Assembly (NCBI GenBank): GCA_012514535.1
Contig: JAAZAA010000275.1
Coordinates: 1-58,156 of the forward strand
DNA: 58,156 nucleotides
DNA from: Myxococcales bacterium
GTDB taxonomy: Bacteria; Myxococcota_A; Polyangia; Polyangiales; Polyangiaceae
Direction: 5' to 3'
Numbering within the stretch: position 1 is the first letter of the stretch; the number at the start of each line of letters is the position of its first letter. The translations under genes and the position numbers were made by a program. Positions 9,979 to 26,780 of the stretch are shown here, in pieces. Under the pieces are notes generated by a model that was not told the origin of the DNA, ran no database searches, and saw nothing but the letters and a program-made list of their open reading frames with translations.

Positions 9979-11151
9979 TCAGTCGTTCGAAGCCGGCGGA
10001 GCGCTGTCTGCCCCCTTCGCCGTGTCTTGGGGCCGCGGCGCCGCGGGGGCCGGGGCTGCCGGCGCTGGCCCGGCGACGCTCCCCGTCGTCGCAGCCCCCG
10101 GCTTGGTCGGCTTGCTCTCCTTGCGGGCGGCGATGGCGTCCGCGCTGGAGGGCGCGTCCGCCTCGAGGGCGGCGAGGGCCTGACTGGCGCGCTCGGCGTA
10201 GCCGGGCTGAGACGCGAGGCGTCGATAGTGGGCGGCCGCTCGCTCCTGCTGTCCGACGGCGCGGTAGCAGGAGGCAGCGTGCCACGAGGCTTCGTCGGCG
10301 ATCGGAGTGCCGGCGTAGCGAGCGGCGACGGTGTCGTAGAGATCCGCCGCTTGCTGACAACCGGATCCGTTCCGCGCAGCGTGGGCTTCGTGGAGCGCCG
10401 CCCGCGGCGCCTGGGGACCTCCGGCCGCGGCCACGCGACGGAACTGCCGCTCCGCCTCGGCGTAGCGACCAGCGTGGTAGGCCTCGAGAGCTCGCTCGAA
10501 GGTGGGCGGCGGCGCGTCTTGCGCGGCTCCTTCGGCGGCGGCCTCCGGCTCCGCGGCGCGCTTCGTCCGCGCGGGGCTGGACGTCTCGGCGCGGAGGGCG
10601 CGGCTCTCGGAGCGGGCAGGGGCGGACGGTATCGCGGGGCGGGGGATGGACCGCTCTTCCTGCGCCGGAGCCTCCGGTGGTAACGCCTCGGTCACGATGG
10701 AGTGGCGCGGCATCGCCTCCGCTTCGAGGCCAGGGACGCCACGCTCCGTGACGCTCACCTGATCGTGCTCGGTGGGGCGCGCCCGCAGGAAGACGAGGCT
10801 GGTGGACACCATCAGCAAGAGCAGCGCGGCCATGGCGAGCTGCGGGCGCATCGCGTAGCCCGCCAGCACCGACACCGTGCGACCGATCCTCTCCCGCAGG
10901 GAGAGCTCTTTGTGAGCGAGGCGCTCTGCCTGGAGGATGCGCGCGTGCAAGCCCACCGGAGGATCCAACAGCGGCACGCTGGCCAGCTCCTTGGTCGCCT
11001 GCATCCCGGAGCTGATGCCCTTGCAGCGAGTGCAGTGGTGCAAGTGGCGCTTCGCCGCGGCCGCAGTGAGCTCGTCCAGCTCACCGTAGAGGAGGTTCAG
11101 CGCGATCTTGTCGTACCGTTCGCAATCCATGAGCTCGGCGTCTCGGTTCAT
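9979..11151 (-). CDS. Membrane anti-sigma factor with TPR-like extracytoplasmic domain
   Basis: 390 residues. The N-terminus carries a zinc-finger anti-sigma motif (HLHHCTRCKG, residues 36-45). One membrane helix follows (about 104-122, LAMAALLLLMVSTSLVFL). The Pro/Ala/Glu-rich linker leads to TPR-like helices (FERALEAYHAGRYAEAERQFRRVA, then SCYRAVGQQERAAAHYRRLA). The last 50 residues are Ala/Pro-rich and disordered. By analogy with ZAS proteins, the N-terminus should hold the neighbouring sigma factor inactive while the outer part senses an envelope signal. The gene lies 72 nt downstream of the sigma gene. ATG 11130 is an alternative start. Confidence 0.85.
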   Translation of the reverse strand: MNRDAELMDCERYDKIALNLLYGELDELTAAAAKRHLHHCTRCKGISSGMQATKELASVPLLDPPVGLHARILQAERLAHKELSLRERIGRTVSVLAGYAMRPQLAMAALLLLMVSTSLVFLRARPTEHDQVSVTERGVPGLEAEAMPRHSIVTEALPPEAPAQEERSIPRPAIPSAPARSESRALRAETSSPARTKRAAEPEAAAEGAAQDAPPPTFERALEAYHAGRYAEAERQFRRVAAAGGPQAPRAALHEAHAARNGSGCQQAADLYDTVAARYAGTPIADEASWHAASCYRAVGQQERAAAHYRRLASQPGYAERASQALAALEADAPSSADAIAARKESKPTKPGAATTGSVAGPAPAAPAPAAPRPQDTAKGADSAPPASND

Positions 11152-11223
11152 TGCTCCCTGCCTGATGCGCTCCGCTCGGCCGCTGCCGTCGGAGGTTCGA
11201 CGGGAGGCAGCGCGGCGCGCGGC

Positions 11224-11841
11224 TCAGCGCAGCGCGCGGGCATACTCCTCGAACTCGCACAATGCCTTCTGGAGGCGTTCCAGCGCGTAGCGCATGCGGC
11301 TCTTGACCGTGTTTTCTCCGACTCCAGTGATGACGGCGATCTCCTGAAAGGGCACATCTCCGATGTGCCGCAGCAAAAACACCTCCTTTTGCTCCTCGGG
11401 GAGCTCCTCGACCGCCAGGGCGACGCGCTCGCGGATCTCGCTGGCAACGACGACCCTCTCGGTGCTCGCCGCAGGGTGCGGATCGGCGAACCGGTCGCCG
11501 AGCGTCGAGCGGCCTTCGCCGTCGTCGGAGCCGCCGTCGAGGGACGCATGGCGGCGGTGCTTCTGTCGGCGGAGGTGGTCGACGCAGAGGTTCCGGGTGA
11601 TCGTGTACAGCCACGTCGAGAAGCGGGACTCGTGCTTGAACTCGCCCGCGCGCTGGACCAGCCGCAAGAAGGCCTCCTGGGTCACGTCTTCGGCCCATGA
11701 CGCGTGGCGCAGATAGCGCAGCGCGAAGTTGTAGACGGGCCGCTCATAGCGGCGCAGGAGCTCGGCGAACGCCTCGCGGTCACCCCTCTGATAGCGGACC
11801 ATGAGCACCTCATCGCTCGTCTCCCCGTGCGCCGCGGTCAT
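11224..11841 (-). CDS. ECF (RpoE-like) sigma factor
   Basis: 205 residues from MTAAHGETSDEV at 11841. The longer frame upstream is not needed. Region 2 is seen in AFAELLRRYERPVYNFALRYL, EDVTQEAFLRL and RFSTWLYTITRNLCVDHLRR. Region 4 is seen in LPEEQKEVFLLRHIGDVPFQEIA followed by TVKSRMRYALERL. It would direct RNA polymerase to envelope-stress-type promoters once released by the anti-sigma factor encoded directly downstream. The target genes are unknown. Confidence 0.95.
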   Translation of the reverse strand: MTAAHGETSDEVLMVRYQRGDREAFAELLRRYERPVYNFALRYLRHASWAEDVTQEAFLRLVQRAGEFKHESRFSTWLYTITRNLCVDHLRRQKHRRHASLDGGSDDGEGRSTLGDRFADPHPAASTERVVVASEIRERVALAVEELPEEQKEVFLLRHIGDVPFQEIAVITGVGENTVKSRMRYALERLQKALCEFEEYARALR

Positions 11842-12373
11842 GGCTTCGCTCCCGATGGAAGGATGGTAGGGCGGGGCCCGGCGGCGAACAGGCCCCGGCG
11901 TCGGCACCTGGCCGACGCACGCCTCCCGAAGGGGTGGCTATGGGTTCGACGTTCCAGCACGTGGTTCGATCTGGAGGGAGGGGAGCAAGGGCCGGTGCGA
12001 AGAACGGTACGCTCTCCCAGCGGCCCACCCTGGATCCGGTCAGAGTACGCCGACGCTAGTCCTTTGTCCGGGCCCCGTGCAAGCGCACCCGGCCCGGGAA
12101 AATCGCCCCAGATCCCGGGCGCTTTGGGACCGTCGGGGCTGCCCGATGCGGGCTCCGTTCCGAGGGTGTCGCCCGTGGAGCGGAGGTGGGCCTCTTCGGC
12201 CATCCTCACCCGGCTGGTGGAATGGGTGGCGGCCGCGCCTGGGAAATCGGGGGCTTGGCAGCGGTGGAATGCGGAAGGATCATCCGTGCTTGCCGACACC
12301 CCGGCTTGGCCCCCTAAGATGCGGGGGAGCAGCCCGCCCCCGGCGCCGCCGCGGGCAGCTCGGGAGAGGAACG
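11842..12373. other. 532-bp divergent intergenic region
   Basis: This separates the leftward sigma factor operon from the rightward Glt/Nfs-like cluster and should hold promoters for both. Apart from one weak candidate promoter for the cluster at 12290-12320, I see no gene, tRNA or clear repeat. Confidence 0.6.
12290..12320 (+). promoter_or_regulatory. Weak candidate promoter for the envelope cluster
   Basis: TTGCCG (12290-12295) and TAAGAT (12315-12320) are separated by 19 nt. They lie about 54 nt upstream of the first ATG, which is preceded by a GGGAGAGGA ribosome-binding site. The spacing is long and the -35 matches only partly. Confidence 0.3.
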
Positions 12374-13276
12374 ATGTCTCGATTCAGTAGCTCGACTCGA
12401 ATGATCGCAGTGGCGCTGGCCGTGGTCGGCTGGCCCGCTCTGGGGCTCGCCCAAGGGGCGGCAGGAGAGGGGGCTTCGCAGACGGGCTCTGGCGCTGCCA
12501 CGGCTGCGCAGGACTCGGGATGGACCTCCGACTCCGAGGTCCCGGAGGCGGGGGAGCGGGCGGAGGCCGTCGCGCAGGCGCCGACGGAGGAAGATGCGTC
12601 GCCGACCCAGGGCGAGGCGAGCCCGGCGAGACCAGAGGCGCCCGCATCCCGGGAGCTGGACGGAGCGACGTATCAGATCCGCCTGCGCGACCTCGAGCAG
12701 CGCGTGGACGAGCTCAAGGAGCAGATCCGCCGAAGCCACACCCGGCTCAGCCTCCTGAGCGACACGATCCTGGCGGCCGGGGTCGGCGGAGCGCGCGCGG
12801 AGATCGTCTTCCAGAACGAGCTCAGCAGCGCTTTCCGGCTGACGGAGGCGGTGTTCGTCCTCGACGGGGCGGTGCAGTACCGCAAGCAGGACGAGACGGG
12901 GACCCTCGCGGCCCAGGAGACGATCCCGATCTTCAGCGGTTCGATCCCCTCGGGGGACCACACCCTCCAGGTCCTCATCAAGCTTCGCGGTCACGGTTAT
13001 GGCGTCTTCTCGTATCTGCGGGGCTACGAGGTCGAGCTGCGTGACGCGCACTCGTTCACGGTGACGGACGGCAAGCTCATCGAGGTCAAGGCGACCGCCT
13101 GGGAGCGCGGAGGAGCTACCACGCCCCTCGAGGAGCGTCCCGCCATGCGCTACACGAGCAACCTGCGGAGCCTGGGGGACGTTCCCGCCACGCCCGCGAA
13201 GGGGGGCGCCGGGAGTTCGAAGGGGTCCGGGTCGGGACGGGTCGGCGGCAGCGTGTCCGTGGGCGGAGGAAACTGA
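12374..13276 (+). CDS. Secreted coiled-coil/beta protein, first gene of Glt/Nfs-like cluster
   Basis: 300 residues. The signal peptide (MIAVALAVVGWPALGLAQG, starting near residue 10) gives a periplasmic or exported product. Residues 30-90 are Ala/Glu-rich and disordered. A short coiled coil follows (YQIRLRDLEQRVDELKEQIRR). A beta-rich domain comes next (AEIVFQNELSSAFRLTEAVFVLDG, then FSGSIPSGDHTLQVLIKLRG), and the C-terminus is Gly/Ser-rich. From memory, similar myxobacterial proteins were mislabelled dihydrolipoamide acetyltransferase, but nothing here supports an enzyme. It ends 2 nt before the next gene. It probably scaffolds the envelope assembly encoded downstream (inference). Confidence 0.85.
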   Translation: MSRFSSSTRMIAVALAVVGWPALGLAQGAAGEGASQTGSGAATAAQDSGWTSDSEVPEAGERAEAVAQAPTEEDASPTQGEASPARPEAPASRELDGATYQIRLRDLEQRVDELKEQIRRSHTRLSLLSDTILAAGVGGARAEIVFQNELSSAFRLTEAVFVLDGAVQYRKQDETGTLAAQETIPIFSGSIPSGDHTLQVLIKLRGHGYGVFSYLRGYEVELRDAHSFTVTDGKLIEVKATAWERGGATTPLEERPAMRYTSNLRSLGDVPATPAKGGAGSSKGSGSGRVGGSVSVGGGN

Positions 13277-13278
13277 CG

Positions 13279-15726
13279 GTGGATGGGCGCCTCGCGCCTC
13301 CGCCGGGGGGCCGCTCGAGCACCGCAGTTCGCTCGAGCTCCGCAGTGCGCTACGCGCTCTTGGCGCTGGCCTTTGGGGTCTTCCCCACGCCCGCGGGGGC
13401 GGTGTCCGCGGACGAGGCTCGCGCCAACGCGACGAAGGCGATCACCGCGGTCGAGGCGCAGGCGAGCTCCCTGCGGCGAGTGACCGCGGAGACCCGCCGC
13501 CTCGATCCCAGCCGGCTCGTCACTGCGGGGGAGCTCCACCTTCGGACGAAGGACTACGAGCGGGCCATCGATCAGCTGAACAAGGTGATCGAGCTCGATC
13601 AGCAGGGGCGCGTCCCCGAGGCGGTCGCCGCGGACGCGACCTTCCTCCTGGCGGAGGCGTACTTCGCCGACGGGCAGCTGTACTCGGCGCGGCGCTACTA
13701 CGAGCGCATCGCGGAGCGGGCGGAGCAAACGGCCTACCGCGGGTTCGCGGGGCGCGCCGCGAGCCGCCTGGTGGACGTCGCCCTGCGAACGCGCCGCACC
13801 GAGGGTCTCGACGGGATCCTCGCGCAGGTCGAACGCCTCGCCCCGACCGATCCCACGGGCTCCTTGCAGTACGCGCGGGCCAAGCTCCTCTTCGCCAAGA
13901 ACGACCTGAACGGTGCGCGCAGCGCCGCCAGCGCCGTGCCCGAAGGGTCCGAGTACATCCACCGATCGGCCTATCTGGTTGGCGTGACCCTGGCCAAGGA
14001 GGCGGGGCTGATGCAGGGCACTCCGCGCGGGACGCAGCCGGGGGGCAAGCCCGGCGCCACGGCCTCGACGTCGGGGGAGGCGGCGGGACCCTCACCGGCG
14101 CTCCAGCAAGCCATCGCGGCGTTTCGCCGCGCGGCGGAGCTGCCGACGAAGGATCCGGAACAAGAGCACGTCGTGCACCTCTCCTGGATGGCCATCGGGC
14201 GCTTGCTCTACGAGGAGGGGGCCTACCTGGAGGCTACCGAGGCCTACGCGAAGGTGCCGCGCACCTCGCCGGAGTTCACGACGGCCCTGTACGAACTGGG
14301 CTGGGCCTATGTTCGGCTCGGGGACTACGATCGCGGGCAACGGGCCCTCGAGCTACTGAGCGTGCTCGACCCGGGCCGCGTGGACGCCGCAGACGGAGCG
14401 TTGCTGCGGGCGGATCTCCTCCTGCGCTCCGGGCGGTTCGAGCAGGCGCTCGCGGCCTACCACCAGGCGCGCGACGAGTACGATCCGCTTCAAAAGCAGG
14501 TCGCCGCCTTCTTGAGCGCACACACGGATCCCGCGGACTACTACGACGTGCTCACCGCGGACGGCTTGGAGCTCGGCGGGGAGCTGCCCACCGTGGCCGT
14601 GGAGTGGGCGCGGGAAGAAGCGGCGGAGGACCGGATGTTCGCGGTCACCGACGACGTCGCGCGTTCGAGGCGCCTCGTGAAGCGATCGCGTCAGCTCATC
14701 CAGCAGCTGGAGGCCACGCTGGCGTCGAGCTCTCGGGCGAAGATGTTCCCGGAGCTCTACGGGGAGCTCGAGAAGGCCCTCGGGCTCCTGAATCAGGTTG
14801 CGCTGGCGCGACGGCAGCTCGCCCTCGGCATGGATGACGAGGCAGGGAACGAGGGGCAGGGAGAGCTCGCGCAGGTGCGGGCCGAGCGTCGTCGCTTGAT
14901 GGCGCGTCTCGGTGAGGTGCCGGCCTATCCCGCCGACTTCAACCGACGTCAGAGCGAAGCCGAGAGCGGGTTCAACGCGGTGTCCCAGGAGCTGCAGCGG
15001 CTGACGCTCCGGGCCGACTACCTGCAAGCGATGGTGAACGGCCTGCGGCGGGTCCTGGTCGACGGCGCTCAGGCGACGAGCTCCTCGGCGTCGCGGGCGC
15101 GCTTCGAGGAGGAGCTCCGGGTGGGTGAGGAGGAGCTCGCGGCCCACCGCCGCCGCATCGACGAGCTCCGCCAACACGTCGAGATCGGACGGGTGCAGAT
15201 CGGGCTGGGCGACGAGCGCTTCTCGGAGGACGACACCGTACGCCGCCGCTTCCGCGAGCTGTTCGCGCGTGAGGTGGCGCTCGCGGCGAGCGGAGCGGAT
15301 CGCGACGCCGCCGACTACGCCCGGGGGATCCAACCGCTGCTCCAGAGAGCGGACGCCGTCGAGGACCGAATCGAGCGGGCTCGGGCCGCCCTCGAGGCCG
15401 CGGGGGAAGCGCGCAGTCGGGACGTAGCCGCCACGGTCGCCCAGGAGCGCGAGTTGATGGAGGGGTATGTGTCGCACCTCGACGAGCTGGATCGGAGCGC
15501 GCGGGTGCTGCTCGGCGAGATGGCCATGGAGAACCTCGAGCTCGTCCGCAAGCGGCTGAAGAACGTGGTGCAGCGCGCGGACGTGGGGATCGTGCAGCAC
15601 GCCTGGGAGCTGCGCGAAGATCAGATGCACCGACTGCGCCAGCTCCAGCGGGAGCGCGCGCGGGAGGAGAGCTTCCTCAACGACGAGCTCCGCGAGGTAC
15701 TCGACGACGCGGAGGAGCTGCCATGA
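13279..15726 (+). CDS. Periplasmic TPR plus coiled-coil protein
   Basis: 815 residues with a GTG start 2 nt after the preceding stop. Signal peptide YALLALAFGVFPTPAGA. The N-terminal two-thirds hold TPR-like repeats (LVTAGELHLRTKDYERAIDQLNKVIEL, LLYEEGAYLEATEAYAKVP and YELGWAYVRLGDYDRGQRALELL). The C-terminal third is strongly helical and heptad-like (RARFEEELRVGEEELAAHRRRIDEL and more), suggesting a long coiled coil. It overlaps the next gene by ATGA. It is likely a periplasmic scaffold that bridges the inner and outer membrane parts of the machine. I cannot match it to a single named Glt protein. Confidence 0.88.
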   Translation: MDGRLAPPPGGRSSTAVRSSSAVRYALLALAFGVFPTPAGAVSADEARANATKAITAVEAQASSLRRVTAETRRLDPSRLVTAGELHLRTKDYERAIDQLNKVIELDQQGRVPEAVAADATFLLAEAYFADGQLYSARRYYERIAERAEQTAYRGFAGRAASRLVDVALRTRRTEGLDGILAQVERLAPTDPTGSLQYARAKLLFAKNDLNGARSAASAVPEGSEYIHRSAYLVGVTLAKEAGLMQGTPRGTQPGGKPGATASTSGEAAGPSPALQQAIAAFRRAAELPTKDPEQEHVVHLSWMAIGRLLYEEGAYLEATEAYAKVPRTSPEFTTALYELGWAYVRLGDYDRGQRALELLSVLDPGRVDAADGALLRADLLLRSGRFEQALAAYHQARDEYDPLQKQVAAFLSAHTDPADYYDVLTADGLELGGELPTVAVEWAREEAAEDRMFAVTDDVARSRRLVKRSRQLIQQLEATLASSSRAKMFPELYGELEKALGLLNQVALARRQLALGMDDEAGNEGQGELAQVRAERRRLMARLGEVPAYPADFNRRQSEAESGFNAVSQELQRLTLRADYLQAMVNGLRRVLVDGAQATSSSASRARFEEELRVGEEELAAHRRRIDELRQHVEIGRVQIGLGDERFSEDDTVRRRFRELFAREVALAASGADRDAADYARGIQPLLQRADAVEDRIERARAALEAAGEARSRDVAATVAQERELMEGYVSHLDELDRSARVLLGEMAMENLELVRKRLKNVVQRADVGIVQHAWELREDQMHRLRQLQRERAREESFLNDELREVLDDAEELP

Positions 15727-18700
15727 GCGCGCTTCGTCGAGACACGCCGGCGCAGGCCTCGGAGAGGTCGTCGCGTCGGGGGACGAGCCGTGGCGCGGGT
15801 GGTCAGCGCGGCGGCGGTCTGCGCGGCCGTGCGTGGGACTGGCGCGGGTGGCTCATCGCGGGCCTGTGCGCCGGGGTGACCGCCTCGGCTCAGGTGGCCG
15901 GCGCGGCGGAGAGTGCGGCGGGCGGCGCGGTGGCCGAGAGCGAAGCCGCCTCGAAGACCAGCACGCCACCGGTGTATCCCCTCCAGTGTGGCGGCGCGGC
16001 GGCCCTGCGGGTGGTCGACGCGCCCCGCTTGCCGCCTCCGACGCCGGAGCAGGTGCGTGCGCTCCGCCTGCTCGAGGAGGAAGCGGAGGGGTACCTCGCC
16101 GATGCCAAGCGGTTCCAGGGCACCCTCACGACGATCGTGCGCCACCACTACGAAGAACGGCGCCGCCGCGTGCTGTCGACCCTCGATCGAGAGATCGACA
16201 TGGAGCGCAAGGAGCTGCTGGAGGCGCGCGCGGAGGCGATCCGCCGGCTCGAGGACTTCGTGGCGCGCTACAGCGGCGCGAACGCCGATCCCCAGGCGAC
16301 CCCGGACGCCATGTTCCGGCTCGCGGCGCTCTACGAGGAGCGCGCCCGTGACGACTACGACGCGGACCTCACGGAGGGCTTGCGCCCCGCGATCGACATC
16401 TACCGGAGCATCGTCGAGCAGTATCCCGCCTACCAGGAGAGCGCCGCCGTGCACTACTACCTGGGTCACGCGCTCACCGACGCGGGACGACTCGAGGAAG
16501 GGCAACAAGCCTGGCGGTCCCTGGTGTGCGCCAACCGCTACCAGGTCACGTCCGCGCCCGCCTCGGGCGGCCAAGGAGGTGACGCGCAGGGGACCGTGCT
16601 CGTGCAGCGCCTCCCCCAGGACCACGACCGGCGGTTCTGGAACGAGTGGTACAACAAGAACCCCGTGCCCCTCGATCAGCTGGGGGGACCGCGGGCGAGC
16701 TCGAGCCAGCTCGGCGTGAAGGAGGAGGAGCTGACCTTCGTCGATCCTTACGCGGGCTGCGAACCGCTGCCCCAGGATCTCGCGCCGGGCGACGAGCCCC
16801 GCTACCTCGCCGAGATCTGGTGGCAGATCGGCAACTTCCACTTCGACGCCCTGGGCCACGGGGGGCCTTACGCCCTGAATCGCGCGGTCAGCGCCTATGA
16901 CCACGCGCTCCAGTTCCGCAAGCCGCCATTGTACGGCGTCGCGCTTTACAAGCAGGCGTGGGCCTACTTCAAGCAGCAGCGCTACAAGACCGCCGTCCAG
17001 GCGTTCGTCGAGCTGCTGCGGTACGCGGACGAGCAGGAGAAGAAGACCGGCGACGCGGGCGCCGATTTCCGCTCCGAGGCGTACACCTACATCGCCGGCT
17101 CCCTCACGTACGTCGACTTCGACGGCCCCCCTGCCGACGACCCCAACATCCCGCGCAGCGACGTGCTCGACGTCGAGCTCGATCCCCTCATCGCCGAAGA
17201 GCGAATGAGCGTGGCCATCGATCGCGTCCAGGATCCCGCGCTGATCCCTCAAGATCAGAAGTGGACGTCCGCGATCTACAAGGCGCTGGCCCAGGAGTTC
17301 ATCGAGATCAGCCAACATCGCAACGCGATCCGCGCCCTGGAGATCACGGCGAACAAGTTCCCACTGGATCGCGACGCCCCGGCGATCGTCAATCGTATCG
17401 CGGAACTCTACGATCAGCTCTCGCGCTACGCCCCCGACGGCTCTCCGGCGCGCGCCGAGTACGCCGGGCGCGCCCTGTCTGCGCGGATGCAGCTCGCCAA
17501 CTACGTCGGGGAGACGGTCTGGACGGAGGCGAACCGCGACGACCCCGAGGCGCTGGGCGCAGCCGAAGAGCTCGTCCGGGTGGGGCTCCGGCGCGCCGCT
17601 GCGGATCACACGAACTACGCGCGGGCGTACAAGGATCGGGCCCTTCAGCTGAGCGACCCGCAGGAGCAGACGCGTCTGCTCGACAAGGCGATCGAGGAAT
17701 ACCGCCTGGCCGCGCGCGGCTGGCAGGCGTACTTGGATCAGGACTCCACCGCGAGCGACGCGTACGAGAGCCGCTTCTGGCTGGCGGACGCGCGCTTCTG
17801 GTCCACGGTGCTGCAGGTGCCGTTGGGGCGCTCGCCAACCGCGGAGGAGGCCAAGCTCGCCCGGGACGCGGCGGTGGCCGTGCGCGACTCGAACGAGGAC
17901 GACAAGTACCGGCAGCCGGCGGCGTACTACGTCGTCACCCTGGCCGAGAAGATCCTCGAGGACGAGTACCGCAAGTACGAAGAGACCGGCGGCGCGCAGG
18001 GGATCCGTCAGCGCTCCGAGGTGAGCTTCGAAGGCGACGGAGCGGAGCGCAGGGTGCTACGGCAGGAGCTCGAACCCCAGGTGCAGCTGGCCGTCTGTGC
18101 CCGCGACGAATACAACGCGCGCATCCCTCTCGCGGAAGATCCGGAGAAGAACGGCCTGCTCTATGCCTTCCAGGCGGCGGACTACTTCTTCCTGTACGGG
18201 CAGTTCGAAGAGGCGGCGCGGCGCTTTCGACCCATCTACGAGGAGCACTGCGGCAAGAACGAGTGGGGCTACCGCGCCTGGGAGAAGCTCATCAGCATGA
18301 GCAACTTCGAGGGCCGAGCGGACGAGAGCCGCCGGCTCGCCGAAGGGAGGAGCTGCGCCTACGACGAGGAGTCTCGGCGCGCGGAGGAGTCGATCCGGAA
18401 GCCCGTCAAGCAGGGCGTCGCGTACCTGGACGCGCGGCGCCTGTACGAGGAGGCGGAGCAAATGCCCGACGGCCCCGAGCGCGATGGGAAGTGGCGGGCG
18501 GCAGCGGCGGCCTACAAGGTCGCCCTCGACGCGGCGCCGGATCGCGACGAGGCCCCCGAAGCGGCCATGAACGGCGCGTACGCCTACAAGCAGGTGGGAG
18601 AGTACGATCGGGCGATCGCCATGTATCGGCTCTTCATCGAGCGGTACGGCGACGATGCGACGCTGCGTAGGTTGCGGAGCGGAGACCCCAAGGCGCAGCC

Positions 18701-19970
18701 GCCCCAGGCGGCGGACCCGGCGAAGTACGAGGAGCGCGTCGGGTTCCTGAGCGGCGCCTACGAGGCGTTGGCCGGAGCGTACGTCTTGTTCTTCGACTAC
18801 CCCAAGGCCGCCGAGACCTTCGATCACATCAGCGGCAACGATCATTTCCCGGCGGAGAACCGCAAGTCCGCGGCGCTGCAGGCCCTCGGGCTCTACGCGA
18901 ACCTCGATGACACCTCGGGGATGCAGCGGGTGCGGAAGCGTCTGCCGACCCTCGGCGCCACCGCCGAGGAGCTGGCGGAGGCGGACTTCATCATCGCGAG
19001 CGCGCCCCTCGGGAAGTGGGACGAGCGTAGCCCCCAGGAGGGAGCGAACCGCCAGGCACGGCTTGCGGCGGAGGCAGCCATGGAGGGCTACTACGAGCGT
19101 CACCGGACGCAGCCAGCCGCCGCCAAGTTCGTGGTGCGCGCGGCCTACCACATGGCGCGGGCCAAGCGCGCCGTTCGATCGCCGACCACGAACACGTGGT
19201 GGAAGCGGACCATCGAGAGCTTCGAGCGCTACCGCCAGGTGGCGCCGCGCCAGGACGGTCGCAGCGCGGCCCTGGGCTCACCGGAGGCGAGCATGGCGGC
19301 GGAGGCCGACTACACGATGCTCGACGCGGAGCTGAAGGCGAAGTTCGACTACGAGAGCGGCTTCCACCGCTACAAGGGCACCGTCGTCGAGGTGGTGAAG
19401 GAATACCAGAACGACGCGATCGAAGCGAAGCGCTGGTACGACCGGCTCCAGCACGTGGTGGACGCCTACCTCTCCCAGGAGTGGGCCACCGTCGCCATCG
19501 CGCGGCAGGGGTCGGTGTATGACTCGCTTCGCACGGGCCTGTACAACACGCGCCCCCCGGAGCTGAAGATGTTCACGGACGCGCAGGAGCGGGCGCTGCG
19601 GGCCGCGGAGGAGAGCGACAACCTCGATCTCCAGGACAAGGCCGACGAGATCCGCTTGTCCGTGCAGACCGCGTGGCGGGACAAGCGGGATCAGGAGCTC
19701 GACAGCGCCGACCAGGTGGCGGTGGATCGCTACGCGACCGCCGTGATCCTCGCGCGGCGTTACAATCTGTCGAACGCCGCCGTCACCCGCGCGATTCGGC
19801 GCCTCGCGTTCCTCACGGACGTCGTGGGGGAGGCGAAGATGGCGCAGTTCACGGCGGGCAAGCCCGAGCTGGAGTACACCCCGGGGATGTTCCAGCGCAT
19901 GAGACCTGGTGTGGTGACGGCGCCCGAGCCCAATGGCCTGCCCGAACCTTTGCCCGTGAGCGTGCGATGA
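15723..19970 (+). CDS. Giant periplasmic TPR protein, GltD/AgmU-like
   Basis: 1415 residues. The N-terminal basic stretch and hydrophobic segment (WLIAGLCAGVTASAQVAGAA, near residue 40) serve as a signal or anchor. Many TPR-like units follow, for example AAVHYYLGHALTDAGRLEEGQQAW, YGVALYKQAWAYFKQQRYKTAVQAF and AMNGAYAYKQVGEYDRAIAMYRLF. Size, TPR content and position directly before a GltE-like lipoprotein match GltD (AgmU) of Myxococcus or its sporulation paralogue NfsD. Those are periplasmic core parts of trans-envelope machines. ATGA overlaps on both sides show strict co-translation. Homology to GltD is inferred from architecture and synteny. Confidence 0.85.
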   Translation: MSALRRDTPAQASERSSRRGTSRGAGGQRGGGLRGRAWDWRGWLIAGLCAGVTASAQVAGAAESAAGGAVAESEAASKTSTPPVYPLQCGGAAALRVVDAPRLPPPTPEQVRALRLLEEEAEGYLADAKRFQGTLTTIVRHHYEERRRRVLSTLDREIDMERKELLEARAEAIRRLEDFVARYSGANADPQATPDAMFRLAALYEERARDDYDADLTEGLRPAIDIYRSIVEQYPAYQESAAVHYYLGHALTDAGRLEEGQQAWRSLVCANRYQVTSAPASGGQGGDAQGTVLVQRLPQDHDRRFWNEWYNKNPVPLDQLGGPRASSSQLGVKEEELTFVDPYAGCEPLPQDLAPGDEPRYLAEIWWQIGNFHFDALGHGGPYALNRAVSAYDHALQFRKPPLYGVALYKQAWAYFKQQRYKTAVQAFVELLRYADEQEKKTGDAGADFRSEAYTYIAGSLTYVDFDGPPADDPNIPRSDVLDVELDPLIAEERMSVAIDRVQDPALIPQDQKWTSAIYKALAQEFIEISQHRNAIRALEITANKFPLDRDAPAIVNRIAELYDQLSRYAPDGSPARAEYAGRALSARMQLANYVGETVWTEANRDDPEALGAAEELVRVGLRRAAADHTNYARAYKDRALQLSDPQEQTRLLDKAIEEYRLAARGWQAYLDQDSTASDAYESRFWLADARFWSTVLQVPLGRSPTAEEAKLARDAAVAVRDSNEDDKYRQPAAYYVVTLAEKILEDEYRKYEETGGAQGIRQRSEVSFEGDGAERRVLRQELEPQVQLAVCARDEYNARIPLAEDPEKNGLLYAFQAADYFFLYGQFEEAARRFRPIYEEHCGKNEWGYRAWEKLISMSNFEGRADESRRLAEGRSCAYDEESRRAEESIRKPVKQGVAYLDARRLYEEAEQMPDGPERDGKWRAAAAAYKVALDAAPDRDEAPEAAMNGAYAYKQVGEYDRAIAMYRLFIERYGDDATLRRLRSGDPKAQPPQAADPAKYEERVGFLSGAYEALAGAYVLFFDYPKAAETFDHISGNDHFPAENRKSAALQALGLYANLDDTSGMQRVRKRLPTLGATAEELAEADFIIASAPLGKWDERSPQEGANRQARLAAEAAMEGYYERHRTQPAAAKFVVRAAYHMARAKRAVRSPTTNTWWKRTIESFERYRQVAPRQDGRSAALGSPEASMAAEADYTMLDAELKAKFDYESGFHRYKGTVVEVVKEYQNDAIEAKRWYDRLQHVVDAYLSQEWATVAIARQGSVYDSLRTGLYNTRPPELKMFTDAQERALRAAEESDNLDLQDKADEIRLSVQTAWRDKRDQELDSADQVAVDRYATAVILARRYNLSNAAVTRAIRRLAFLTDVVGEAKMAQFTAGKPELEYTPGMFQRMRPGVVTAPEPNGLPEPLPVSVR

Positions 19971-21316
19971 ACAGACGTGCCTCGTCTCCGCTGGGTCCGA
20001 CTTGGGCGTCTTGGGGGGCGCTCGGGCTCGGGGTGATGCTCGCCGTGAGCGGGTGCTCCAAAGGTGGGTCGACCTCGGGGCCCACGGGCCCGTCCGCGAT
20101 CGATCATGAGGTGCCCGCGGGGACGGCGGGACAAGGGACAGGAGACGCCGGGTACCAGTTCGCCGTGGACGAGAGCGCCGCGGAGGGGACGGGGCCGCGC
20201 CCGGAGATGTCCGCCCGGGCCAAGGAGGCCTACCAGGCCGGCTTGCGCGCCTTCTCCGTGGGGGACTTGAACGGCGCGCGGACGCAGTTTCTGGCGGCCA
20301 TCGCCGCGGACGGGAAGGCCTACCAGGCCCACTACTCCCTGGGGGTGGTGGAGGAGCGACTCGGGTCGCCGGCGGCCGCCGCTGCGGCGTACCGGAAGGC
20401 CCTCGACGTCGTTCCCGACTACGAGCAGGCGGCCGCGGCTCAGGCGCTCTTGATGGCGAAGCGAGGCGATCACGAGAGCGCCGCGCGGGACCTGAGGGCG
20501 CGCCTGTCGCGCCTCCCCAAGAGCGCGATCCTCACGGGCGCGCTCGCGGAGGTGAGATCGATGCAGGGCGAGTCCGGCGAGGCGCAGCGTCTCGCCCAGG
20601 AGGCCCTGAAGAAGAACCCCGATTATCGTCCGGCGATGGTGACCCTCGCGCGCGATCATTACCGGCGTCGTCGCCTCGATCTCGCCCTCTACACGCTCCA
20701 GGGGATCCTCGACGGCTACGGGCCCGAGAACCCACCGCGGGACAAGAACAACGCGGAGGCGAGGCTCCTGCGCGGGCTCATCTATCGAGAACGAAACCAA
20801 CGGGGCTTGGCCATCGACGAGCTGACCCGGGCCGTGGAGCTCCGCCCCGATCTGGTGGAGGCGCGGCTGCAGCTCGCCACCTACATGCTCGAGGCGGGCA
20901 ATGCCCAGGGGGCGCTGCCCCACCTCGAGGCCGCCGTCCGCTACGACCACAAGAACGTGCTGGCCCGCCTCAACCTGGGCGACGCCTATCGACTGGCGGA
21001 ACGCCCCGCGGACGCACGACGGGAGCTCGAGTGGGTGGCGAAGGCCGCCCCCGAGCGGGTCGAAGTGCACTACAATCTCGGTTTGTTGTTCCTGCTCAGC
21101 AAATCCATCCCCGGCATGACCCCGATCCAGGCCACGAACAAGGCGATCGAGCACCTCGAAGCCTACCGGGAGCGCGGCGTCCGGGGCGGACCGGACGACA
21201 CCGAGGAGCTGATCACCCGCGCCAAGACGCGCAAGGCGTTGCTCGAGGCGGAAGCGCAGGAGGCGAAGGGTGCTCGAGACACGGCGGCGGAGCCGCCCAC
21301 GGAGGAGGCGCCATGA
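19967..21316 (+). CDS. TPR lipoprotein, GltE/AglT-like
   Basis: 449 residues from the ATG overlapping the GltD-like stop. A lipobox (LAVSGC, about residues 26-31) predicts a lipid-anchored product, probably in the outer membrane. TPR motifs recur: AYQAGLRAFSVGDLNGARTQFLAAI, AHYSLGVVEERLGSPAAAAAAYRKAL, LQLATYMLEAGNAQGALPHLEAAV and ARLNLGDAYRLAERPADARRELEWV. Architecture and order fit GltE (AglT) or NfsE, the lipoprotein that pairs with GltD. It overlaps the next small gene by ATGA. Confidence 0.87.
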   Translation: MNRRASSPLGPTWASWGALGLGVMLAVSGCSKGGSTSGPTGPSAIDHEVPAGTAGQGTGDAGYQFAVDESAAEGTGPRPEMSARAKEAYQAGLRAFSVGDLNGARTQFLAAIAADGKAYQAHYSLGVVEERLGSPAAAAAAYRKALDVVPDYEQAAAAQALLMAKRGDHESAARDLRARLSRLPKSAILTGALAEVRSMQGESGEAQRLAQEALKKNPDYRPAMVTLARDHYRRRRLDLALYTLQGILDGYGPENPPRDKNNAEARLLRGLIYRERNQRGLAIDELTRAVELRPDLVEARLQLATYMLEAGNAQGALPHLEAAVRYDHKNVLARLNLGDAYRLAERPADARRELEWVAKAAPERVEVHYNLGLLFLLSKSIPGMTPIQATNKAIEHLEAYRERGVRGGPDDTEELITRAKTRKALLEAEAQEAKGARDTAAEPPTEEAP

Positions 21317-21588
21317 CGTTCTCGAAACCACTGCCACGCGGGCGTCGGAGGTCGGGACGCGGCGCCCTGGGGCTCGCCGTTTTTCTGTTGGCCGGGAGCG
21401 GCTGGGCCCAGGACACCCAGAGCAAGGGGCGGGTGGTGACGATCAGCGAGGTGACCATCGTAGGTCGCGTGCAGAAGCCGATCGCCGCGGTGGATGTGAG
21501 CCGCATCCAGCCGCGTCTCACCTTGGCGGAGCTCGATCAACCCTTCGCGAACCGAATCGAGAAGGCGTTGTATCGCGCTCCATTCTGA
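21313..21588 (+). CDS. Small secreted protein within the Glt/Nfs-like cluster
   Basis: 91 residues. The start ATG overlaps the preceding TGA. Signal peptide ALGLAVFLLAGSGWAQ. The mature protein is about 60 residues and includes RVVTISEVTIVGRVQKPIAAVDVSRI, then PRLTLAELDQPFANRIEKAL. It is likely periplasmic. Its place between a GltE-like and a GltG-like gene is where M. xanthus keeps small accessory genes such as gltF, but I cannot show homology. Co-translation argues that it is a real part of the complex. Confidence 0.75.
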   Translation: MTFSKPLPRGRRRSGRGALGLAVFLLAGSGWAQDTQSKGRVVTISEVTIVGRVQKPIAAVDVSRIQPRLTLAELDQPFANRIEKALYRAPF

Positions 21589-21612
21589 GCCGTTCCACGG
21601 GGGAGTCGGCTC

Positions 21613-22203
21613 GTGTCCACGCTCCAGCCCTTTCTGCTCATCCTGACGCTGGTCCTCGTGGGGGGCTGCGCGCGGGTCTGCGCGCGGGTGTACGCTCGAC
21701 ACCGGGCGGCGCTCCCGAGCGATGGAACCATGCAGCGCTTGCGTCGCGCGGCGACGTCCGGCGAGGGAGCCGCGTCCGAGAAACCGCAGGAAAGCCCCGG
21801 GTCCGCGGGGTCCGGCGGGCGCGGATCGGAGCGACCCCTGGAGGAGAAGGTGATCTCCGAGGTGCTCGGCGCTCGCAACCGTCCTCTGGCGGTGCTGGCG
21901 TTGAACGAGCTCACCACGGAGGTGAGCATCGCCCTGCAGGACGCCCGGACGCTCCCGCCCGCCGTCGGGCGTGTCGCGTTGCTGGGTGGCACCGCCCTCG
22001 GCTTGACCGCGATGGCCACCGCGCTCCGCAACGAGCAGGGCGCGACGGCGGCGATGTGGGGCGGCGCGTGCCTGCTGCTCGCGGTCGCGGGTGCCGGTGT
22101 GTGTGGGGTCTATGGGCGTCTCGCACGTCGTGCGGCCGAACGGCGTCGTGAGCAGACCCGTGAGCTGATCCGACTCCTCGAACGACGCTTGCCCTCGACG
22201 TGA
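21613..22203 (+). CDS. Three-helix inner-membrane protein with ExbB/TolQ-like topology
   Basis: 196 residues, GTG start. A membrane helix lies at about 6-20 (FLLILTLVLVGG). Then come a Gly/Ser-rich cytoplasmic loop, a helical segment (RPLAVLALNELTTEVSIALQDA), and two adjacent membrane helices (RVALLGGTALGLTAMATAL and AAMWGGACLLLAVAGAGVCGVYG). A charged amphipathic tail (RREQTRELIRLLERRL) ends the protein. This TM1-loop-TM2-TM3 order, with GLLGT-like glycines at TM2, resembles MotA/TolQ/ExbB proton channels. The similarity is weak and judged by eye. No ExbD/TolR partner is in the window. It could be the energising or anchoring subunit of the cluster (inference). Confidence 0.7.
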   Translation: MSTLQPFLLILTLVLVGGCARVCARVYARHRAALPSDGTMQRLRRAATSGEGAASEKPQESPGSAGSGGRGSERPLEEKVISEVLGARNRPLAVLALNELTTEVSIALQDARTLPPAVGRVALLGGTALGLTAMATALRNEQGATAAMWGGACLLLAVAGAGVCGVYGRLARRAAERRREQTRELIRLLERRLPST

Positions 22204-22617
22204 GGGAGGCCCGGCGCAGCCGAAGCGTACGCCCAGGATGCGCCGTCCTCGAGGACCGGGGTCTCGAGCGTTGCAAACGCAAACGCTGGCGTTCCGAAGG
22301 AATCCCGAGCAACGGAATGAAGGAGCGCGGCGGACTGCGGGCAGAGCGGTCTTGGTCCGTCGAAGTGTCCGTGATGCCTCCGGGGCCGAAGCGTACGTCC
22401 CGGTAGTGGGAGGTAGGCCGGCCGTCAGCGGAGCCAGAGCACCGTTTCAGAAACGACCGCCAGGAACGACGCCACCGGCGCGTCGAAGCCGCCTCGGGAG
22501 TGGACCGAGACGAGACCCAAATGGAGGGCCCCAGGGGAGCGAGCTGGTGACGGGAATGCGGTGGAAGCGGTGGACCCGCGCAAGACAACTCGATAACCTC
22601 CGGAGCTGGTTCTCGTC
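22204..22617. other. 414-bp gap inside the Glt/Nfs-like cluster
   Basis: No gene is supported. The only structure seen is a short inverted repeat at 22282-22293 (AACGC-TG-GCGTT) beside a repeated AAACGC motif, a possible operator. The gap suggests the GltG-like gene downstream has its own promoter, but no clear -35/-10 is visible. Confidence 0.5.
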
Positions 22618-24024
22618 ATGACGCAACCTCAGCAGCAAGTCCAACCGCAGTCCCGTCCCGGACAGATGACGGCGGTGATGCGGGCCGTCGCGTCGACCGG
22701 TCCGAAAGTGCTCCGCATCGGTCTGGTGCGCGGCGGACGTGTGCTCGAGGAGCGCGTCATCAAGCAGCGGACCGACGTGACCATCGGCCCGAGCGAGAAG
22801 AGCATGTTCGTGCTCGCGGACCGCAGCCTGCCGTCGGGCTTCAAGCTCTTTGAGCTCGTGCAGGGCGAGTACGTGCTCAATTTCCTCGAAGAGATGAGCG
22901 GTCGCGTCGCGTTGCCGACGGGCATCTCCGAGCTGCAGGTGCTCAAGGGGCAGGCTCGGCGGACCGACGAGGGGGCGTACCAGCTGCGGCTCACCGAGGA
23001 TTCTCGGGGCAAGATCGTCGTGGGGGACACGACGTTCCTCTTCCAGTTCGTCGCGCCCCCGCCCGTGCAGCCGAAGCCGCAGCTCCCGGTCGCCGTCCTG
23101 CGCGGCGCCACGGGGATCGACTGGCGCACGACGATCATCGCTGCGTTCGCCTTCTTGGCGCACTTCCTGGCCATCGGGGCCATGTACTCCGATTGGCTCG
23201 ACCCGATCGTCGACGAGGAGCTGAGCCTCGCGGGGCTGGTCGACACCTTCGACAAACTGCCCCCGCCGCCGCCCATCGAGGAAAAGGTGGAGGAGGTCAC
23301 GGAGACCGCCACCGAAGCGAAGGAAGAGGCTCCGACCACCCCGCGCCCCACGCCCTCGAAGGGCAAGACCGCGCCGGACAAGGGGAGCAGCGGCGGCTCG
23401 ATGAGCTCGGCGGAGGTCGCCGCCCTCAGCAACGAGCTGGATCAGCTCTCGATGCTCACCCTCGGCGCGCTCGCCTCGACGGGGCCCGCGACGGCGGGGG
23501 TGCTCCAGGGCGGCGACGTCCCGACGGGCGCCCTCGACGCGGCCGCCGCGAGCAACGCGGGGGTCGGGGTCGGGGGAGGGTTGAAGCTCGGCTCGGGGGG
23601 AGGCGCCATTCGCCCGGGGCAGGGCACCGGCTTGGGGAGCATCGGCACCACGGGCAAGGGGACCGAGGGCGGCACGGGCACCGTCCAGGAGGTGAAGGGG
23701 CCGACGGGCAACGCTCAGGTCTCGTCCTCCGTCACGGTGGGCACCGTGAGCAACGCCCAGTCGGTCATCGCCGGCATGCGAGCGGGCTTCCGGCGTTGCT
23801 ACCAGCAGGCCCTCAACCAGAACCCCGACATCCAGGGATCGATCAAGCTCACGATTCGCGTGGGGCCGGGCGGTGAGGTCTCTGGGGTGAGCGCCACCCC
23901 CTCGGGCAACCTGCCGCCGTCGGTGGTGGCCTGTGTCGAAGCGCGGGCCCGCGCCGGGCAGTTCGCGCCTCCGGACGGCGGGAGCGCCGTCGTGCAAGCG
24001 CCGGTCACGTTCGTGAAGCAATGA
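22618..24024 (+). CDS. GltG-like TonB-family protein with AgmX/PglI C-terminal domain
   Basis: 468 residues. The N-terminal 150 form a beta-rich, FHA-like domain (KVLRIGLVRGGRVLEERVI, then DVTIGPSEKSMFVL). One membrane helix lies at about 170-190 (TIIAAFAFLAHFLAIGAMY). A Pro/Glu then Gly-rich stretch reaches the periplasm. The last 100 residues match the AgmX/PglI C-terminal tail, with two conserved cysteines (FRRCYQQALNQNPDIQG and VVACVEARARAGQFAPP). In the Glt machine such proteins (GltG, GltJ) are inner-membrane, TonB-like transducers passing motor force to periplasmic parts. GltG fits better because no GYF or zinc-finger region is present. Confidence 0.87.
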   Translation: MTQPQQQVQPQSRPGQMTAVMRAVASTGPKVLRIGLVRGGRVLEERVIKQRTDVTIGPSEKSMFVLADRSLPSGFKLFELVQGEYVLNFLEEMSGRVALPTGISELQVLKGQARRTDEGAYQLRLTEDSRGKIVVGDTTFLFQFVAPPPVQPKPQLPVAVLRGATGIDWRTTIIAAFAFLAHFLAIGAMYSDWLDPIVDEELSLAGLVDTFDKLPPPPPIEEKVEEVTETATEAKEEAPTTPRPTPSKGKTAPDKGSSGGSMSSAEVAALSNELDQLSMLTLGALASTGPATAGVLQGGDVPTGALDAAAASNAGVGVGGGLKLGSGGGAIRPGQGTGLGSIGTTGKGTEGGTGTVQEVKGPTGNAQVSSSVTVGTVSNAQSVIAGMRAGFRRCYQQALNQNPDIQGSIKLTIRVGPGGEVSGVSATPSGNLPPSVVACVEARARAGQFAPPDGGSAVVQAPVTFVKQ

Positions 24025-24223: not shown

Positions 24224-24820
24224 ATGGGGCAGCACGAGCAGCGAAGCAGGCACCGGAGAGACCCGAAGATACTCGGAGGCTTGCTGCTCGGTCTGGTCCT
24301 GTTGGCGGTCGGCGTGGCGGGGGCCCAGCAGAGTGACGCCGACGCCGAGCCGGCCGTCCCCGCGGCCCCGGCTCCGTCCTCGCTGACGCCCGGACAGATG
24401 CTGGAGCAGTCGCGCAACACCCTCGAGCGGATGCAAATGAGCGCGGACTCGATCCGACGGCAGCTCGCCGAGGCCCGCGAGGCCCGCGACGTCGTGAAGT
24501 CTTTGTGTCTCGACGACAAGCTCAGCCAGATGGACGTGGCGCGCCGCTCCGCGGGCGATCGGGTCAGCGGCCTCGAGTCCGCCGTGAGCAGCGGGAACGC
24601 CGAGCGGGCTCGCCATGAGTTCGCCGTCATCACCGCGCTGCAGGAGCGCATGGAGGCGCTGACCGCGGAGGCCAGCCAGTGCATCGGGGAGGAGACCGGA
24701 GCCATCGGCGACGCGACCTTGTCGGTCACGGTCGACGCCGAGATCGCGGCGATGGAGCCGACCATCCCTCTGGATCCCCTCGTCAGCGCGCCGCCGGTGC
24801 TCGCCAGCCCCACGCTGTGA
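24224..24820 (+). CDS. Secreted helical protein of the polysaccharide-export module
   Basis: 198 residues. The basic N-terminus and hydrophobic core (ILGGLLLGLVLLAVGVAGAQ) form a signal peptide. Residues 50-165 are helical and heptad-like (QMLEQSRNTLERMQMSADSIRRQLAEA and others). Two cysteines (SLCLDD and SQCIGE) could form a disulfide clamping the helices. The C-terminus is Pro-rich. It is probably periplasmic. It has its own strong promoter and precedes the barrel and OPX genes, so a role in polymer export or its assembly is likely but unproven. Confidence 0.82.
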   Translation: MGQHEQRSRHRRDPKILGGLLLGLVLLAVGVAGAQQSDADAEPAVPAAPAPSSLTPGQMLEQSRNTLERMQMSADSIRRQLAEAREARDVVKSLCLDDKLSQMDVARRSAGDRVSGLESAVSSGNAERARHEFAVITALQERMEALTAEASQCIGEETGAIGDATLSVTVDAEIAAMEPTIPLDPLVSAPPVLASPTL

Positions 24821-25015: not shown

Positions 25016-26464
25016 ATGAAGTCGTGGTCGAAGCTCGCGGTGCTCCTGGGCGCCATCACCTGGTCGGGCATGGCTCGAGCCCAGGCGCCGGACGCCACGA
25101 ACGGGCAACCGTGGATCTCGGATCGAGCGCTCGGGGAGGGGCCGGGGATCCGCGTGGGCGACTTCGAGCTCCATCCGGGGCTCGCGGCGGAGTTCGGCTA
25201 CGACTCGAACTTCTTTCAGCGGGCGGACTCGGAGATCGAGCGGGACACGATGGGGCCCGTCATCGATACGCTGCGCCTACGCATCACCCCCAGCCTGACG
25301 CTGCGCAACCTGGACCGCCGCGCGTCCTTGGCCCCCGGCGAGCGCGGCGCGCCCCCGAAGATCAAGTTCCAGCTGGCTGCGGACGCCGCCTACAACGAGT
25401 TCTTCGCCCTCGATTCACGCTACACCTCCATGCTGAATCGACAGCGGCGCCTCTCGGGAGGCGCCGGGGCGGACCTGGTCCTGCTGCCGGAGCGTCCCTG
25501 GAGCGTGGACACCCGCGTGGCCTACCGGCGCACCGTCGAGCCCTCGAACCTCGGCTCCCTGGCGGGCGACTTCGATCGCCATACGCTCGGCGCTGGGGCA
25601 GGGCTCACGTGGCGCCCGGGGGGTGGCCTCTTCGAGTGGCGCTTCGTCGGATACGATCTGCGCGCGACGTTCTTCGAGGACACGGGCTTCGACTCCTTCA
25701 ACAACCTCGATCATCGCTTCGAGACGCGCGGACGCTGGAAATTCTTGCCGCGCTCGGCGCTCGTGTACGACGCGCACTACCAGCTGATCCGGTACACGGG
25801 CGACGCGCTCGGCACCCCGCCAGCGGGGCCTCGCAACCGCCTCACGGATCAGAACAACGGGGACATCATCCGCGCCCGCGCGGGGTACAGCGGCCTGCTC
25901 ACCCCGCGCCTCGGCGTGACGGCCCTCGGCGGTTGGGCGGCGAGCTTCTACGATCAGCGCATCCAGCCCTCGCTCAACTTCGACGACTTCATCGCGCACG
26001 CGGAGCTGACGTGGTTCTTGAATGCGCAGCCGCGGCTACAGCCGGGGTTTGCGTCCGTCGGGCTCTCGTCGATCGCGGTGGGCTACGATCGAAACTTCCT
26101 CAACGGGTATTTGGGGAACTTCTACCAGCGCGACCGCGGCTACGCGGCGGTGACCTACTCCTTCGCTGGCCGCTTCGTCAGCGCGCTCTCGGGTGGTCTG
26201 TCACACATCAGCTACCCGGACTTTTCCCTGGCGCCCCTCCCGAACGAGCCACGGTTCACTCGCCCCGGGTTCTCGGAGAACCGGATCGACGCCATGTTCT
26301 TTGGTGAGTACCGCCCGGCGCCCACGGTGGGGATCAACACCACCGTTCGTTATGATCGGAACTTCTCCCAGGTCGTGCCCTTCAGCGAGACCGATCCGGA
26401 CATCGGCGACGATCTGTCGTTCCAGCGCTGGTCGGTGTTCCTGGGCGCGCGCTGGTTCATGTGA
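25016..26464 (+). CDS. Large outer-membrane beta-barrel, probable polysaccharide-export porin
   Basis: 482 residues. Signal peptide (KLAVLLGAITWSGMARAQ). The mature protein begins with VGDFELHPGLAAEFGYDSNFFQ. It then runs through many amphipathic strands and finishes with a C-terminal aromatic strand ending ARWFM, typical of BAM-inserted barrels. The architecture and its place before a helix-less OPX gene match the 18-stranded Wzp-type barrels that secrete exopolysaccharide, spore-coat or biosurfactant polymers in M. xanthus. Strand number cannot be confirmed by eye. An alternative is a general BBP2-type barrel. Confidence 0.85.
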   Translation: MKSWSKLAVLLGAITWSGMARAQAPDATNGQPWISDRALGEGPGIRVGDFELHPGLAAEFGYDSNFFQRADSEIERDTMGPVIDTLRLRITPSLTLRNLDRRASLAPGERGAPPKIKFQLAADAAYNEFFALDSRYTSMLNRQRRLSGGAGADLVLLPERPWSVDTRVAYRRTVEPSNLGSLAGDFDRHTLGAGAGLTWRPGGGLFEWRFVGYDLRATFFEDTGFDSFNNLDHRFETRGRWKFLPRSALVYDAHYQLIRYTGDALGTPPAGPRNRLTDQNNGDIIRARAGYSGLLTPRLGVTALGGWAASFYDQRIQPSLNFDDFIAHAELTWFLNAQPRLQPGFASVGLSSIAVGYDRNFLNGYLGNFYQRDRGYAAVTYSFAGRFVSALSGGLSHISYPDFSLAPLPNEPRFTRPGFSENRIDAMFFGEYRPAPTVGINTTVRYDRNFSQVVPFSETDPDIGDDLSFQRWSVFLGARWFM

Positions 26465-26765: not shown

Positions 26766-26780
26766 ATGCGAGGTCCCGCG

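Follow-up and report, generated by a model that had tools for sequence, protein, structure and literature searches.

A divergent Glt/Nfs-type locus joined to Wzp-like and OPX polysaccharide export genes in a Polyangiaceae genome

The window analysed here is the whole of contig JAAZAA010000275.1 (58,156 nucleotides; C208 in our contig numbering) of a Myxococcales bacterium of the family Polyangiaceae (GenBank assembly GCA_012514535.1), whose 5.77-Mb genome is divided into 442 contigs. It carries seven rightward genes between positions 12374 and 24024, which an original prediction, made from the sequence alone, described as a compact Glt/Nfs-like trans-envelope cluster. We found that five of the encoded proteins are one-to-one homologues of GltC, GltD, GltE, GltF and GltG, that another (F) is a degenerate TolQ/AglR relative in the slot that holds the motor in other lineages, and that the conserved locus runs beyond 24024, to 27401. 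On balance we favour the view that the locus specifies a machine of a separate, ancient branch of the Agl-Glt/Nfs type, predicted to be proton-driven and to export or handle a secreted polysaccharide; the polysaccharide role is proposed because the Glt parts show a conserved linkage to Wzp and OPX genes. The genes of the locus are as follows.

12374 to 13276, plus strand: protein A, a secreted coiled-coil protein of unknown family that opens the locus (64 to 70% identity in relatives over its conserved C-terminal part; no Pfam family matched)
13279 to 15726, plus strand: GltC counterpart, a secreted TPR protein of 815 amino acids (aa) (profile match to canonical GltC; NF033756, 55 bits, cut-off 450)
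15723 to 19970, plus strand: GltD counterpart, a large secreted TPR protein of 1415 aa (profile match to canonical GltD; 48 to 65% identity in relatives)
19967 to 21316, plus strand: GltE counterpart, a TPR lipoprotein with start at 19967 and lipobox AVSGC (profile match to canonical GltE; NF033758, 103 bits, cut-off 225)
21313 to 21588, plus strand: GltF counterpart, a small secreted protein of 91 aa (ranking by the GltF family profile)
21613 to 22203, plus strand: F, a degenerate TolQ/ExbB/AglR relative of 196 aa in the motor slot, with three long transmembrane helices
22618 to 24024, plus strand: GltG counterpart, a TonB-like transducer with an AgmX/PglI tail and without an FHA domain (NF033760, 100 bits from model position 180 onward, cut-off 650; NF033768; tree)
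24224 to 24820, plus strand: cc2, a secreted coiled-coil protein that keeps its position in Polyangiales and in most other loci
25016 to 26464, plus strand: Wzp-like outer-membrane barrel of 482 aa with 18 predicted strands (AlphaFold model, Foldseek and synteny)
26619 to 27401, plus strand: OPX (Wza-type) polysaccharide export lipoprotein with Poly_export (PF02563, 65 bits) and SLBB (PF10531, 55 bits) domains, whose true start is probably internal, near MPDLPARC

All seven open reading frames (ORFs) of the original prediction were present, and the first five abut or overlap as it had described. The first junction is a 2-bp gap and the next three are 4-bp overlaps, which suggests that the five genes are tightly coupled in translation. 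The order and strand of the whole set are kept in Polyangiales-type loci, Sorangium cellulosum among them, and six of the seven proteins show approximately 40 to 75% identity across these loci, far above chance.

To test for kinship beyond the TPR repeats, each window-type profile was compared with each of canonical GltC, GltD and GltE, the latter taken from three genomes (nine pairings). Strong similarity was confined to the corresponding pairs: GltC at 1e-27 over 378 columns, GltD at 1e-73 over 948 columns and GltE at 8e-38 over 381 columns, against approximately 5e-5 to 4e-7 for the mismatched pairings. When 8,040 ORFs were ranked by the family profile of the 91-aa protein, canonical GltF came directly behind the members of the family. 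Its gene lies between the gltE and gltG homologues, the position reported for the 89-aa GltF of M. xanthus (PMC3169522). The GltG counterpart has the single transmembrane segment, proline-rich linker and AgmX/PglI tail (NF033768, 52.6 bits; cut-off 40) and keeps them at 55 to 65% identity among relatives; its profile, run against the PDB, gave no more than a marginal TonB match. The assignment of Glt/Nfs parts D, E and G thus stands, as homologues in a separate divergent system. The statement that GltC is missing does not, because GltC is a TPR protein and not a barrel, and the 815-aa protein is its counterpart. No paralogue of the window GltD was found by plain sequence search of its own genome, and the kinship is visible by profiles only.

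The GltC, GltE and GltG counterparts all miss the NCBIfam cut-offs for the gliding equivalogs (listed above), as the same family often does elsewhere in the phylum. The homologues of GltC, GltD, GltE and GltG that form the Group B core of Luciano et al. (2011) occur together in the window; the AglR/AglQ/AglS-type motor genes that also belong to a Group B cluster are not on C208 and are present in approximately 20 related loci. No GltA, GltB, GltH, GltI, GltJ or GltK was recognised in the locus, the rest of the genome not having been searched with these models. A canonical-type gltC-D-E-F-G set followed by a giant TPR (GltI-like) gene is found on another contig of the same genome (C152). Its GltG has 685 aa, bears an FHA domain and scores 348 bits to the gliding model, in contrast to the window GltG without FHA. 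Window-type GltG proteins group together in the GltG tree (one clade, SH-aLRT 98), away from canonical GltG; all 46 locus copies and two extra copies fall in this clade. The original prediction had set a standard glt locus elsewhere, combined with an unrelated window set, as its counter-case. The first half exists on C152; the second does not, since the window set is homologous.

The genome has additional proteins of this kind. A 12-kb contig (C121; L040, 3261 to 4916) encodes a second FHA-less GltG-like protein with 194 bits to the GltG model; no other Glt genes were recognised on that contig, and in the tree the protein is sister to the canonical GltG from C152. Contig C381 (L041, 5181 to 7081) has a weakly GltF-like protein directly before another AgmX-tailed TonB-like protein and carries an ECF sigma factor gene, perhaps a further Glt-like remnant. 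In total, fourteen AgmX/PglI-tail matches were found in the 5.8-Mb genome (L009 to L022), of which eleven pass the curated cut-off; this is an unusually high number of TonB-like transducers. A tandem pair of GltF-like genes was seen in a class-level relative (G086; L104, 10713 to 11326).

The genes for cc2, the 482-aa protein and the Poly_export/SLBB protein follow gltG in the Polyangiales loci that reach far enough. The AlphaFold model of the 482-aa protein, built from a shallow alignment (pTM 0.73), has 18 long strands and matches large outer-membrane barrels in the PDB by Foldseek. The closest PDB sequence to the OPX protein is 9n9a, a polysaccharide export protein. The composite translocons of M. 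xanthus, EpsY/EpsX, ExoA/ExoB and WzaB/WzpB, are marked by the pairing of a short OPX protein with an 18-stranded barrel (PMC9601211, PMC9603273). The window has this combination: its OPX protein is short and has Poly_export and SLBB domains, and a predicted 18-stranded outer-membrane barrel is encoded next to it. The window pair differs in setting, as it lies behind a Glt operon and not within a polysaccharide synthesis cluster; one survey excluded OPX genes outside synthesis clusters (PMC9601211).

A window-type GltG profile was searched against 113 Myxococcota genomes and the regions around the matches were inspected. Many of these genomes are fragmented, so that missing OPX or motor genes can reflect contig ends. 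Three locus layouts were seen across the phylum. Type I (approximately 20 loci in several families, including one single-contig 5.0-Mb genome) reads A-GltC-GltD-GltE-GltF-TolQ-TolR-TolR-GltG-cc2-Wzp-OPX, with the motor inside. Type II, in the family of the window and two neighbours, has a motor slot of 600 to 1050 bp that holds gene F. Type III, present in several families, has no motor in the locus, and its GltF and GltG genes almost abut. Among the matches listed, 43 of 67 genomes with a window-type GltG have an OPX gene no more than 12 kb away from it, compared with approximately 0.4 expected (one GltG was counted per genome, and positions were transferred by hand from two search tables). 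In 26 of those 43 genomes the linked OPX gene is the only one detected among the matches listed. In one relative (G121), a gene for a Wzc-type kinase directly adjoins the OPX gene. The only Wzz-domain Wzc found in the window genome is on contig C68, beside a Wzy_C protein. Separation of Wzc and OPX genes is likewise seen in the M. xanthus system for biosurfactant polysaccharide (BPS), in which WzaB is encoded 1 Mb from the BPS cluster (PMC7310880, PMC7484181).

Three points therefore go beyond the original prediction: GltC and GltF are present, cc2-Wzp-OPX genes follow downstream, and in other genomes a motor is encoded between GltF and GltG. The set had been suggested to be minimal, which no longer fits a locus that includes GltC and GltF and continues directly into a barrel and an OPX gene. 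It had also been said to lack outer-membrane genes; GltA/B-type genes were indeed not recognised in the locus, but a barrel is encoded at 25016 to 26464. Overall, the description as a divergent Glt/Nfs-type system was borne out, but not the suggestion that it is minimal or the statement that GltC is lacking.

The predicted absence of a motor holds for C208, which has none of the eight MotA_ExbB matches of the genome, but not for the genome as a whole. Contig C107 carries two divergent TolQ-TolR-TolR triplets, X and Y (L038, 9510 to 14593), with ExbB and ExbD domains confirmed by Pfam. Triplet X is on the plus strand at approximately C107:40673 to 42592. The divergent pair is kept in seven of seven Polyangiales genomes examined, two Sorangium genomes included. 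X joins the operonic motors of type I loci in the TolQ tree (81/35) and nests within them when both TolR proteins are added (82/92 and 88/92). Two other topologies were rejected with the TolQ tree: X and Y as sister copies (approximately unbiased test, p 0.0006) and operonic motors grouped with Y (p 0.002). We also dropped the naming of Y as plain 'AglRQS', since its nearest relative, in G040, lies next to a GltG of a non-canonical type. From these sequence comparisons, the motor of the window locus is probably triplet X. The simplest history, which is moderately supported, is that the motor genes moved to a place beside another triplet and F was left behind. By eye, in many operonic motors (L092, L096, L101 and others) the Asp expected in the transmembrane helix of TolR seems to be replaced by Asn in the first TolR, and the second keeps the Asp.

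It is also conceivable, though unlikely, that the Polyangiales machine has lost its motor altogether, in which case F would be a relic and the Glt parts would serve the export pore as a passive scaffold in the periplasm. In favour of this, the locus has no TolR gene and a degenerate TolQ only, and the slot is fully closed in some relatives. Against it, an X-type triplet that nests with operonic motors has been retained in all seven Polyangiales genomes examined, and GltG keeps its transmembrane segment, linker and TonB-like tail at 55 to 65% identity.

A working model for a proton-driven polysaccharide machine can be outlined. An inner-membrane TolQ-TolR-TolR motor, encoded between GltF and GltG in many lineages and here presumably by triplet X, would turn proton flow into motion. 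GltG would pass the force through the periplasm to an assembly of GltC, GltD, GltE and GltF, which would act on the Wzp-like barrel/OPX pore or on the outgoing polymer, and polysaccharide would be extruded, released or moved along the surface. F may still dock GltG. We infer that motor, Glt parts and pore work as one complex, with a polysaccharide similar to M. xanthus BPS as the cargo. There are two variants of the model, active extrusion or release of the polymer, or its movement after export as with Nfs. A release role would fit because BPS, the likely counterpart, is reported to be released rather than cell-bound (PMC7310880). The assignment of triplet X to GltG is made by analogy with AglR, which contacts both GltG and NfsG; the M. 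xanthus motor is powered by protons, and on spores Agl-Nfs transports a polymer exported by Wza (PMC3858216, PMC3169522). The original prediction had suggested another function, such as surface transport or polymer handling, and polymer handling was its best-fitting suggestion.

Several observations weigh against this model. No OPX gene was found within 12 kb in 24 of the 67 genomes among the matches listed, although some of those contigs end first. No polysaccharide synthesis cluster (Wzx/Wzy or ABC-dependent) was seen near the locus in the window. The branch that joins X to the operonic motors is incompletely supported (81/35; 82/92). A polar mutant in MXAN_1922, the probable M. xanthus counterpart, had no motility defect, and polysaccharide was not measured in that work (PMC3169522).

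MXAN_1922 is the gltD homologue of the M. xanthus G4 cluster. It is only a few locus tags away from the genes of WzpB and WzaB (MXAN_1916 and MXAN_1915), similar to the layout in the window (PMC3169522, PMC9603273). The window locus probably corresponds to G4, judged by locus-tag proximity only. Luciano et al., who named G4, G5 and the spare motor M2, saw no defect in motility and did not assign a function to them (PMC3169522). MXAN_1915 and MXAN_1916 have been described as lying outside a synthesis cluster, and WzaB was treated as an orphan (PMC9603273, PMC7310880, PMC7484181). In the literature searched, no paper was found that joins AglRQS, Glt or Nfs with WzaB, and the accounts of G4 and of WzaB/WzpB stand unconnected. 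A joint motor/Glt/pore locus would offer one explanation both for the roles of G4 and M2, which in 2011 had been left undecided along with the ancestral function of the Glt core, and for the distance of WzaB/WzpB from the synthesis genes. The AglR paralogue of M2 (MXAN_3003 to 3005) did not interact with GltG or NfsG (PMC3858216); M2 may serve G4 in M. xanthus. It is predicted that mutants in G4, and perhaps in M2, are altered in biosurfactant polysaccharide and not in gliding. If true, this would be motor-assisted polysaccharide secretion, of which no report was found in the literature searched.

A clustered motor and Glt core, as in type I loci, is also known from the aglRQS plus gltC, D, E and G core complex of Gammaproteobacteria, Geobacter and Fibrobacter; in contrast to the loci studied here, no OPX/Wzp link is described for it in the paper (PMC3169522). 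The linkage of window-type Glt genes to pore genes for a sugar polymer, seen across much of the phylum sampled, suggests that machines of this kind at first drove or handled secreted polysaccharide and did not serve cell movement. Rather tentatively, TolQRR motor, Glt assembly and Wzp/OPX pore may be a single phylum-wide, proton-motor-driven secretion apparatus that pulls or extrudes polysaccharide across the outer membrane through the pore, with gliding and spore-coat assembly as later derivatives; in Polyangiales its motor would have moved away and left a pseudo-TolQ behind.

The window locus resembles the Agl-Glt gliding machine in its GltC, D, E, F and G homologues and TolQRR-type motor. 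It could therefore be a second gliding or adhesion machine, in which Wzp/OPX would only supply adhesive slime and adhesion sites would be moved by the Glt parts in the manner of Agl-Glt, and Glt gliding has been reported to work with deposited slime polysaccharide (PMC7310880). We consider this quite unlikely. All Glt scores are far under the gliding cut-offs, the genome has its separate canonical-type locus on C152, and the window locus differs from Agl-Glt by a GltG without FHA and by a barrel and OPX gene where no GltA/B/H/I/J/K-type gene was recognised. Besides, gliding is normal in M. xanthus when the probable counterpart is mutated (PMC3169522).

That the locus is a spore-coat machine, as the equivalent of Nfs in Polyangiales, is very unlikely in our estimate. 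The locus spans most of the phylum, including many lineages that are not known to form spores and that we assume to be non-sporulating. Nfs likewise has a Glt-type core without nearby motor genes and acts on a polymer exported by a Wza-type system (PMC3858216). However, Nfs is reported to be the closest relative of Glt (PMC3169522), while the window GltG clade stands apart from canonical GltG in a tree that holds no Nfs sequences. The nfs and exo loci of M. xanthus also lie apart, whereas window-type loci include the pore genes and elsewhere the motor too.

Gene F fills the place of the motor in type II loci. Its identity among relatives is only 15 to 28%, and the window protein matched no Pfam family; the slot protein of one relative (L087) passes the Pfam MotA_ExbB cut-off by itself. 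When a profile built from F proteins of the window's family was run against the 8,040 ORFs, its seven own members came first and the next fourteen were all ExbB/TolQ proteins (best E 0.0009). Real ExbB proteins scored up to 17.8 bits, compared with 6.4 bits or less for reversed and shuffled ExbB controls. A wider F profile gave the same ranking with E 8e-6, the X-type TolQ proteins scoring highest. Compared with the ExbB set of this genome, the F profile aligned collinearly over 177 columns (89% probability); compared with the operonic TolQ set alone, the probability was low (5.5%). We assigned F as a TolQ relative despite the latter value, the wider TolQ set, the ranking test and the controls being decisive. 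The AlphaFold model of F (pLDDT 78) has a first transmembrane helix and two 50-residue helices in a TolQ-like arrangement, and the first twenty Foldseek matches are all TolQ, MotA or PomA (E 0.1 or weaker). Structural Z-scores of approximately 11 were intermixed with those of unrelated helical bundles and were not used as proof.

That F is an unrelated three-helix membrane protein filling the slot by accident would agree with the missing Pfam match, low identity, mixed Z-scores and 5.5% value, but we give it little credence in view of the controlled ranking, the collinear match, the TolQ/MotA hits at the top of Foldseek, the Pfam pass of the L087 protein and the operon position. In the TolQ/ExbB family, glycine/threonine motifs of the second and third transmembrane helices line the ion path. 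The corresponding GLLGT and NTA-GL motifs are absent from F in the alignment with ExbB/TolQ, and no TolR partner is encoded in the locus; for these two reasons proton conduction by F is unlikely. On this view the locus shows how a motor subunit can decay in place with a motor encoded elsewhere in the genome.

Two genes on the opposite strand lie upstream of the locus:

11227 to 11907, minus strand: ECF sigma factor, a divergent neighbour conserved in Polyangiales (Sigma70_r2 and r4_2 over cut-off)
9982 to 11151, minus strand: putative membrane-bound anti-sigma protein with a Cys/His N-terminus, one transmembrane segment and a periplasmic repeat-like part (conserved beside the sigma factor; no Pfam match)

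This sigma/anti-sigma pair (9982 to 11907) stays beside the locus in Polyangiales and may regulate it.

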